A DNA stretch of 64,000 bases from an uncultured Phycisphaerae bacterium (lineage in GTDB: Bacteria > Planctomycetota > Phycisphaerae > Sedimentisphaerales > Anaerohalosphaeraceae), in assembly GCA_937949545.1 (NCBI GenBank), contig CALEDR010000021.1, positions 62,001 through 126,000 on the forward strand, in the 5' to 3' direction. The first letter of the stretch is position 1. Every line of letters begins with the position of its first letter. The position numbers and the translations under genes were made by a program. Positions 11,548-13,158 of the stretch are shown piece by piece. The notes beneath the pieces are model-generated. The model searched no databases and was not told the origin of the DNA. It worked only from the letters and a program-made list of their open reading frames with translations.

Positions 11548-11577
11548 TTGGCGCCTCTTTCCGCCCAAAGGTATAAT
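11548..11577 (+). promoter_or_regulatory. Sigma70-like promoter of the mgtE transcript
   Basis: Perfect -10 TATAAT (11572-11577) with -35 TTGGCG (11548-11553) and an 18-bp spacer. Predicted start is near 11584, giving a ~195-nt leader ahead of mgtE. Confidence 0.6.
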
Positions 11578-11607
11578 TTCAGCTTTCTAACACAGAGAGA
11601 CGAAGCA

Positions 11608-11727
11608 ATGTTGGAAACAGAAAGGACACCTCCCAAAGAACCTTTGGGCAAAGCTGAAGACAGGGATTATTCAGAACCGCTGCGGCTTGACCAAACGGCC
11701 GGCAGAACTGTGGAGTACACCGCCTAA
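11608..11727 (+). CDS. Candidate 39-codon leader peptide upstream of mgtE
   Basis: An ATG at 11608 opens a 39-codon frame ending at TAA 11725-11727, inside the predicted mgtE leader. The peptide begins MLETERTPPKEPLGK and carries four prolines (residues 8, 9, 12 and 24). The upstream GAGAGACGAAG gives only a weak ribosome site. It resembles in concept the proline-containing mgtL leader peptide of enteric mgtA, where translation senses Mg2+/proline; no sequence homology is claimed. It could be chance, and only its position between a promoter and an SD-masking hairpin makes it worth listing. Confidence 0.35.
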   Translation: MLETERTPPKEPLGKAEDRDYSEPLRLDQTAGRTVEYTA

Positions 11728-11735
11728 ACTCCTTG

Positions 11736-11776
11736 TCTGCCTCCGGCCGGACGAATGCCGCGGCAGGGGAGGCAGA
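11736..11776 (+). promoter_or_regulatory. Hairpin sequestering the mgtE ribosome binding site
   Basis: TCTGCCTCC (11736-11744) is perfectly complementary to GGAGGCAGA (11768-11776), a 9-bp stem closed by a GC-rich loop with further pairing possible. The right arm contains the mgtE Shine-Dalgarno (AGGGGAGG, 11765-11772), so the folded leader should block mgtE initiation. Confidence 0.55.
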
Positions 11777-11778
11777 AC

Positions 11779-13158
11779 ATGATCAATCCGATTCTGATTC
11801 CGGAACTGAGAGAGCTGCTGACAAGCAACGACACAGACACCATTCGAAAATTCTGCCAGCAGAACCACCCGGGGAATGTGGCAGAATTAATCAGCGGCTT
11901 GGAACCTGCGGAAGTCTGGCAGGTCCTGCACCTGCTCGAGCCGCCTCTTCGGGCGGAAATCTTCTCCTTCCTCGACCTGAACAAACAAGTCGAACTGGCG
12001 ACCGGGCCGAGCCGAAACGATATGGCACGGCTCCTCGAAGAAATGCCACCCGATGACCGGGCTGACCTCGTCCAAAAACTCGATGAATCCCTCCTCCAGG
12101 AAATCCTTCCCCTCGTAGCCAAGGCCGAACGGGAAGACATTCGCAAACTGGTTTCTTACGAAGAACGAACCGCCGGAGCCGTGATGAGCACCGATTACGC
12201 GGTCCTTCGCCCGGAAATGACCGTTGCACAGGCCATCGAACAGCTGCGAATCCAGGCCCCTTCCAAAGAAACCATTTACTACATCTACGTCATCGATGAA
12301 AATCGAAAGCTCATCGGCTTCGTCTCCCTCAAAGACCTGATCACCGCCAAGCCCGCCCAACTCGTACGGGACATTATGCATACCGATACGATTTTCGCAC
12401 GTGTCAAGGATGACCAGGAGACCGTCGCCAAACTCATCGAAAAATACGACCTGATCGCCGTCCCCATCACAGACGAAAACGGCGTCCTAGTCGGGATTGT
12501 CACCCACGATGACGCCATCGACATCATCCGCCAGGAGCAAACCGAAGACATGGAAAAACTCATGGGAATCGCCGGAACCCATGAAATCAGCAATTATCTC
12601 CAAACTCCCTGGTGGAAGCATTTCTCCAAACGAGTCTATTGGATCGTCGGACTGGCCGCCCTCGGCCTGGTATCCGGACTGGTGATCCACAGTTTCGAAG
12701 CCACCCTGATGAATATGCTGATTCTGGCCTTGTATATGCCGATGGTCGCCGATACCGGCGGAAACACCGGCAGCCAAGCCGCCACCGTTGTGGTCCGCGC
12801 CTTGGCCCTCGGGCATCTGAAACCTCAAGACATTCTCAAAGTGCTTTTCAAGGAATTTCAAGTCTCGCTGGGGCTGGCATTGGCTCTCGGCCTGCTGTCC
12901 TTCGCCAAAGTCCTCTTTCTGTCCCGCGGTTCCGAAATCCCCGTCGGCTTTTCTCTTTCCAAAATTGCTGCAGCCATCTCCGTTGCCTTGGGCCTTCAAG
13001 TCATCACCGCCACGCTCATCGGGGCCGCCCTGCCTCTTATCGTGGCCCGATTCAAACACGACCCAGCCGTCGTGGCCAGTCCCGCCCTGACTACTATCGT
13101 CGATATTACCGGCCTGTTGATCTATTTTTGCACAGCCAAAATCCTTCTCGGAGTCTGA
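11779..13158 (+). CDS. mgtE: Magnesium transporter MgtE
   Basis: A 459-residue Mg2+ channel/transporter of the inner membrane. Domains: MgtE_N superhelical Mg2+-sensing domain (~25-125, with EEMPPDDRADL), tandem CBS domains (~130-250, YYIYVIDENRKLIGFVSL and DLIAVPITDENGVLVGIV), a connecting helix, then five C-terminal membrane helices (~280-459) including the MVADTGGNTGSQAATV pore motif. The start at 11779 is set by AGGGGAGG six bases upstream; an in-frame ATG at 11755 has no site. The leader holds a promoter, a small upstream ORF and an SD-masking hairpin. It ends 2 bp before mtnA, so the two are cotranscribed. Confidence 0.96.
   Translation: MINPILIPELRELLTSNDTDTIRKFCQQNHPGNVAELISGLEPAEVWQVLHLLEPPLRAEIFSFLDLNKQVELATGPSRNDMARLLEEMPPDDRADLVQKLDESLLQEILPLVAKAEREDIRKLVSYEERTAGAVMSTDYAVLRPEMTVAQAIEQLRIQAPSKETIYYIYVIDENRKLIGFVSLKDLITAKPAQLVRDIMHTDTIFARVKDDQETVAKLIEKYDLIAVPITDENGVLVGIVTHDDAIDIIRQEQTEDMEKLMGIAGTHEISNYLQTPWWKHFSKRVYWIVGLAALGLVSGLVIHSFEATLMNMLILALYMPMVADTGGNTGSQAATVVVRALALGHLKPQDILKVLFKEFQVSLGLALALGLLSFAKVLFLSRGSEIPVGFSLSKIAAAISVALGLQVITATLIGAALPLIVARFKHDPAVVASPALTTIVDITGLLIYFCTAKILLGV

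Follow-up and report, generated by a model that had tools for sequence, protein, structure and literature searches.

The locus

In the window, that is, the whole stretch of 64,000 nucleotides that was analysed, which belongs to a genome of 2.84 Mb in 52 contigs, a leader stands between a 192-aa ORF and mgtE, a Mg2+ transporter gene identified by TIGR00400 (E = 1.9e-108). A sequence-only reading of this DNA had called a promoter with a perfect TATAAT, a 39-codon upstream ORF (uORF) with four prolines and, 8 nt past its stop, a 9-bp perfect stem (B:C) burying the Shine–Dalgarno sequence (SD) of mgtE, and all three were recovered (Table 1). The transcript would start at around 11584. Promoter-like sites number 4 in the 2.6 kb scanned, with 0.8 expected, and a TTGGC/TTGCC...TATAAT arrangement can also be read in the same-genus upstreams L003, L004, L005 and L008. 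The SD of the uORF is weak (GAGAG, 11595–11599), and a second in-frame ATG of mgtE, at 11755, lies inside the hairpin loop.

Table 1. Positions of the leader elements and of the transporter gene in the window
Feature	Position	Strand	Remarks
Promoter, TTGGCG – 18 nt – TATAAT	11548–11577	+	TTGGCG 11548–11553, TATAAT 11572–11577; score 10/12
uORF, 39 codons, MLETERTPPKEPLGKAEDRDYSEPLRLDQTAGRTVEYTA	11608–11727	+	Four prolines; putative (translation presumed)
Early acidic pair E3-x-E5 of uORF peptide	11614–11622	+	Read from the sequence
Acid/proline cluster EDRDYSEP	11656–11679	+	Aligned by MAFFT with (D/E)DPGP of relatives
Element A, CGGCCGGCAGA	11696–11706	+	Near uORF end; alternative partner of B in predicted fold
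Element B, 5' arm, TCTGCCTCC	11736–11744	+	Stem partner of C
GGCCG	11745–11749	+	Second partner of A in predicted fold
Element C, 3' arm, GGAGGCAGA	11768–11776	+	Contains mgtE SD GGAGG, 11768–11772
mgtE, Mg2+ transporter	11779–13158	+	MgtE_N, CBS pair and MgtE domain (Pfam)

Genes of the mgtE type can be under Mg2+ control by the M-box (ykoK) riboswitch, which we take to be RF00380. This leader differs in that no M-box was matched in 401 bases even at E up to 5, which bears out the sequence-only reading, and none was found in the 20 related loci scanned; the Rfam scan of the window returned nothing above threshold, and no intrinsic terminator was called at the hairpin on the + strand. Around the –10 box and the uORF lie two pairs of perfect inverted repeats, of 10 and 9 nt, ordered as in a pseudoknot (11563–11586 with 11640–11658); this candidate structure was set aside because L003, a relative with 94% identity, has its second arm pair broken.

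Conservation of the SD-masking stem

Taken alone, the window locus departs no more than moderately from chance: its exact hairpin pattern has a single occurrence in the window and none in shuffles, the stem stands out from shuffles at p = 0.015 to 0.025, and the fold z is –1.54 for the hairpin and –2.04 for the whole leader. It is conservation that lifts it well past chance. Each gene was scored by its best contiguous helix joining the 18 nt that precede the start to the 60 nt lying upstream of them. Compared with shuffles, a stem at p ≤ 0.05 was found in 29/47 curated mgtE genes with a uORF, against 2/42 mgtE genes without one (a repeat of L041 and Persicobacter) and 11/199 control genes; L115, from the cultured carrier Alkalispirochaeta alkalica DSM 8900, was left out because of an N. 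The curated status was assigned by reading peptides, with some of the hairpins already seen, and an automatic uORF call is therefore the fairer test: it gives 21/34 against 10/55, and nine of these ten have a uORF (or its repeat) noted by reading, the tenth again being Persicobacter. In a sequence-only alignment of 18 leaders, chosen out of 26 aligned, 8/11 pairs of B:C have changed on both sides, 86.9% of cells are paired, and the covariation score is 0.424, compared with 0.262 when shuffled (0/500 reach the real value) and at most 0.212 when slid. Searched for in relatives, the hairpin was matched strongly in 7 genomes and nowhere but at this mgtE, and four weaker matches that were inspected lie by nothing Mg-related. 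That selection keeps a short uORF together with an SD-masking hairpin before mgtE is strongly supported, and since both are conserved in close relatives, the lack of conservation that the sequence-only reading had named as speaking against it was not what was found.

Distribution among mgtE genes

The same layout, diverged in sequence, is found before MgtE homologues in Planctomycetota, Desulfobacterota, Acidobacteriota, Spirochaetota, Lentisphaerae and Caldisericales. A uORF with an acidic start – defined as an SD-preceded ATG/GTG frame of 12–60 codons, with its stop 20–100 nt before the gene and two or more acidic residues among positions 2–6 – precedes 35/87 mgtE genes and 6/486 other genes at the same loci (Fisher 5e-26), counts that include kin, since four Caldisericales and some eight Desulfatitalea-like loci are near copies. 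The sample comprised upstreams of MgtE homologues from relatives plus 80 named loci, of which 90 were tested and 87 offered an upstream region of 200 nt or more; L036, being a copy of L008, was dropped, L119 repeats L041, and neither the copies L037, L039 and L045 nor L076, L086 and L009–L031, whose MgtE is distant in the last group, were entered. In Desulfobacterales (L200–L226, the 27 MgtE matches with the highest scores once three known ones were set apart, drawn from matches in 163 of the 194 genomes), such a uORF was seen by a looser rule in 20/27 loci, and by the automatic rule in 17/25 (L207, a repeat of L051, being dropped and L204 too short), 10 of these 25 loci having a stem at p ≤ 0.05 and 8 having both features. 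Of the 24 genomes behind the loci, 10 yielded the mgtE leader in a search for the uORF, which also gave two weak matches.

The leader is not found before every close homologue: L116 (G123), whose MgtE is 70% identical to that of the window, has no such leader within 330 nt, none was seen at the mgtE paralogue G000:C17, and 0/30 Bacteroidota loci, Persicobacter among them, carry a uORF as defined above. Persicobacter (L073/L227) does have a uORF, MEPEPHSQTLGHDISNARFEQRDLLRAFSCVCKPPQR, before mgtE, with an MgtL-like N-terminus (MEPEP), which escapes the definition because it ends further upstream than permitted; its relatives have no acidic uORF by the same test, and it was treated as a singleton. 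The mgtE of G003 (L008, G003:C23) matches in two pieces, owing to a frameshift or an assembly error. Fluoride riboswitches lie near leader-bearing mgtE genes at 3 of the 20 loci scanned (L038, 1332–1393; L054, 1494–1560 on the – strand; L055, 3926–4004 and 6011–6080), one of those in L055 beginning just past mgtE.

The leader peptide

Counterparts of the uORF were found in 46 curated upstreams, most of them with an acidic start whose consensus takes the forms MNDSDGGSS, MNDSEGGS, MDEKDSGGS, MSDSEGS and MEAIESDSPSP, and many with DDPGP or EDPG further along. The genus of the window lacks the full MNDSDGS start and has an MLETER start with EDRDYSEP (QDEPDP in L004). Acidic residues make up 29% of residues 2–9 and 6% of the last ten in the curated uORFs, and [DE]x?[DE] occurs within residues 2–9 in 34/46 of them, compared with 9.0 in within-peptide shuffles, a count to be read in the light of the uORFs having partly been selected for acidity. 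N-termini are conserved and C-termini are not. Pooled pN/pS over nine pairs is 0.48 in codons 2–16 and 0.71 later, and constraint on the uORF is therefore modest; between L002 and L003 there are 5 nonsynonymous and 0 synonymous changes. Of the peptide-sensing logic proposed in the sequence-only reading, the enteric-like coupling of a uORF with a hairpin stands, but the feature that is conserved is the early acidic pair together with (D/E)DP and not the four prolines. These 34 uORFs thereby have the mark of an intrinsic ribosome destabilisation (IRD) sensor given in PMC11282234, two acidic residues near the N-terminus that are neighbours or one residue apart.

Codon choice is skewed at two places. 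Serine following glycine within the first 14 codons is encoded by AGT in 30/36 distinct N-termini, against 12/156 for later serine codons, and proline in (D/E)PG is CCT in 13/19, against 68/252 elsewhere, a preference seen in the uORFs of L034–L226 that is left unexplained by amino-acid constraint. Our guess is that such wobble-decoded codons may add to the loss of peptidyl-tRNA. As an anecdote, E. coli mgtL uses CCT for three of its four prolines.

A predicted alternative pairing in the window's genus

In the predicted lowest-energy fold of leaders of the window's genus, A pairs with B and the SD is open, and masking the uORF tail causes B:C to form, the probability of B:C in five genus members going from 0.01 to 0.93, 0.00 to 0.84, 0.05 to 0.91, 0.38 to 1.00 and 0.00 to 0.93 when the tail is covered. 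With shuffled uORFs its median is 0.92–0.99, and it is as low as in the real leaders in 4, 0, 0, 6 and 0 of 60 shuffles. This fold switch is predicted in 5/5 genus members that carry the gene. In a sister genus it is predicted for L006, L034 and L099, but not for L035, and the fold test fails in L007, L038, L055, L058 and L090. As a plain duplex, A:B reaches p ≤ 0.05 in 12/39 leaders, several of them close relatives (window p = 0.405). The RBS-freeing pairing is, on these predictions, not general, being weak or absent in other lineages, where a ribosome at the stop would sooner open B:C.

The position of A relative to the stop also varies. In L006, L034 and L099, only 5–6 nt lie between the end of A and that of the stop codon, and B begins 16–17 nt past it, so that a ribosome in the act of terminating would sit on A but not on B. 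In the window, 18 nt separate A from the stop codon; a ribosome parked on the stop would therefore hardly cover A, and the OFF state would need kinetic trapping. A ribosome modelled there gives a B:C probability of 0.00.

Comparison with known leaders

According to the accessible parts of the sources, early acidic pairs cause E. coli ribosomes to pause or fall off (PMC11282234, PMC9718836), such fall-off at acidic codons in low Mg2+ has been shown for E. coli MgtL and Salmonella MgtQ, and low Mg2+ makes mgtL translation inefficient and mgtA go up (PMC11552253). Here control would be exerted by hiding the SD, and the nearest known parallel is therefore mgtQ (translation) and not mgtL (Rho-dependent transcription), which keeps the enteric Mg2+ leader logic of the sequence-only reading and shifts its model from the latter to the former. 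As far as PMC8092293 is accessible, mgtQ of Salmonella mgtCBRU has (i) a short uORF with ribosome-destabilising Asp/Glu codons, as the window's leader has a short uORF with acidic codons near its start, (ii) translational control, which is proposed for the window's leader too, and (iii) competing stems over the mgtB RBS. Of these, 3:4 masks the RBS, like B:C, and 2:3 frees it, for which a counterpart is predicted in the window's genus and in three of four leaders of the sister genus. It differs in having 8 codons, in lying inside an operon between mgtC and mgtB and in needing stem 1:2 plus mgtQ translation for expression, whereas the leaders described here have uORFs of 20–48 codons, their own promoter, mgtE as the gene, hosts in other phyla and no stem 1 shown.

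The mgtL leader of mgtA in E. coli/Salmonella likewise has an acidic/Pro N-terminus (MEPDP), alternative structures and inefficient uORF translation at low Mg2+ that raises the importer – a direction that would apply to the window's leader by analogy – but it works by Rho-dependent transcription termination, has 17 codons, and no SD-masking stem is described for it in the accessible text of PMC11282234 and PMC11552253. Compared by eye with the MgtL peptide, the uORFs seem to share its acid/Pro character, with no alignable homology seen. The corL-corA leader also places a uORF and alternative structures before a Mg2+ transporter gene, but that gene is corA and the leader is Rho-dependent in Salmonella (PMC11552253, accessible part). 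Going by its description in the accessible part of PMC11109978, the Thioalkalivibrio mgtE motif likewise has a stem in the 5' leader of mgtE that takes in the SD and the AUG, but it was proposed as a riboswitch candidate, with 32 examples in one genus. Within the scope of our literature search, which left subscription papers and preprints aside, no report of the present mgtE leader was found.

Proposed mechanism and alternatives

The leader is real and conserved, and probably a variant of the enteric-type Mg2+ leaders that stands before mgtE in other phyla. Because the arrangement recurs before Mg2+ importers in many phyla, it looks like an unrecognised Mg2+-sensing switch with the ribosome as sensor, and it is probably, on balance, a translational Mg2+ switch like mgtQ. 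Judging from the acidic motif and the target genes, ribosomes in low Mg2+ would be prone to drop off at the early acidic codons of the uORF; A would then pair with B, leaving the SD free and mgtE translated, a step taken from folding predictions in the window's genus and its sister genus. When Mg2+ is ample, ribosomes would pass through A and B would be freed to pair with C, shutting mgtE, with B:C in the window assumed to be trapped after the ribosome has passed. The outcome would be more importer when Mg2+ is scarce. That Mg2+ is the signal, and that it acts in this direction, is suggested by the target genes and by analogy.

An unlikely alternative is a classical arrest peptide, with a ribosome stalled near the uORF end sitting on B and keeping the SD open. 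In the 28 leaders whose stems reach p ≤ 0.05, the median distance from the stop to B is ~10 nt, so that a ribosome on the stop would reach B, and one modelled there opens B:C in nine leaders (L007, L038, L051, L054, L055, L056, L058, L093 and L102). However, the conserved part of known arrest peptides is C-terminal, the reverse of what these uORFs show.

Direct sensing by the RNA, as riboswitch or thermometer, with an incidental uORF, likewise seems improbable. Mg2+ stabilises RNA stems, the hairpin covaries and GGN-AGT is conserved at the nucleotide level, but the amino-acid motif persists while the serine codon at S4 switches between TCN and AGC, and folding of a 20-leader alignment gave no conserved structure over the uORF, a null result that is weak since the gappy alignment missed B:C too.

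Amino-acid attenuation, exemplified by mgtP in the Salmonella mgtC leader, would have scarce charged tRNA-Pro or tRNA-Ser slow the uORF, in line with the prolines of many uORFs and the CCT and AGT preferences; it is very unlikely given that the proline count and position vary, that the conserved residues are acidic and that the target genes, from two families without kinship, both encode Mg2+ importers. Plain translational coupling, in which the uORF does no more than deliver ribosomes to a weak or masked start, would suit the masked SD and the 51 nt between uORF stop and mgtE start but is hardly credible, as it leaves the acidic start, its conservation and the restriction to Mg2+ importers unaccounted for.

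Beyond the mgtQ-like switch, a more ambitious reading can be put forward tentatively, as possible rather than probable: a family of Mg2+ sensors in at least six phyla, attached to MgtE and to P-type Mg2+ ATPases, in which a codon-tuned leader peptide reads the ribosome's own dependence on Mg2+. Its motifs (an early D-x-D/E, Gly-Ser(AGU) and (D/E)-Pro(CCU)-Gly) would be decoded by wobble pairing, and release of peptidyl-tRNA would therefore be the sensing step. In the accessible parts of the sources, destabilisation of the ribosome by the nascent chain as a means of sensing Mg2+ is described only from enterics, for mgtA and mgtB and, with less clarity, for corA. If true across phyla, it would be a general bacterial Mg2+ sensor beside the M-box, and the conserved AGT codon would offer a handle on what, besides acidic residues, makes the ribosome let go.

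Other target genes

A profile of 16 uORFs was searched against 298 genomes of the class. In G256, a second copy of the leader, with a uORF beginning MDECGSCSLNVAESGGEDPEP and a 13-bp SD stem, precedes a P-type ATPase scored as Mg2+-translocating (TIGR01524, 5.7e-230), and in G079 the uORF precedes another Mg2+ P-type ATPase. Altogether, 23 Mg2+ P-type ATPase loci occur in 20/298 genomes, two with an acidic uORF and one of these two with a significant stem. In G073, the leader stands before an MgtE-like protein that, by eye, apparently has no CBS domains. The Mg2+ P-type ATPase gene behind the leader in L156 (G256:C223) and L162 is frameshifted after 626 codons in the assembly.
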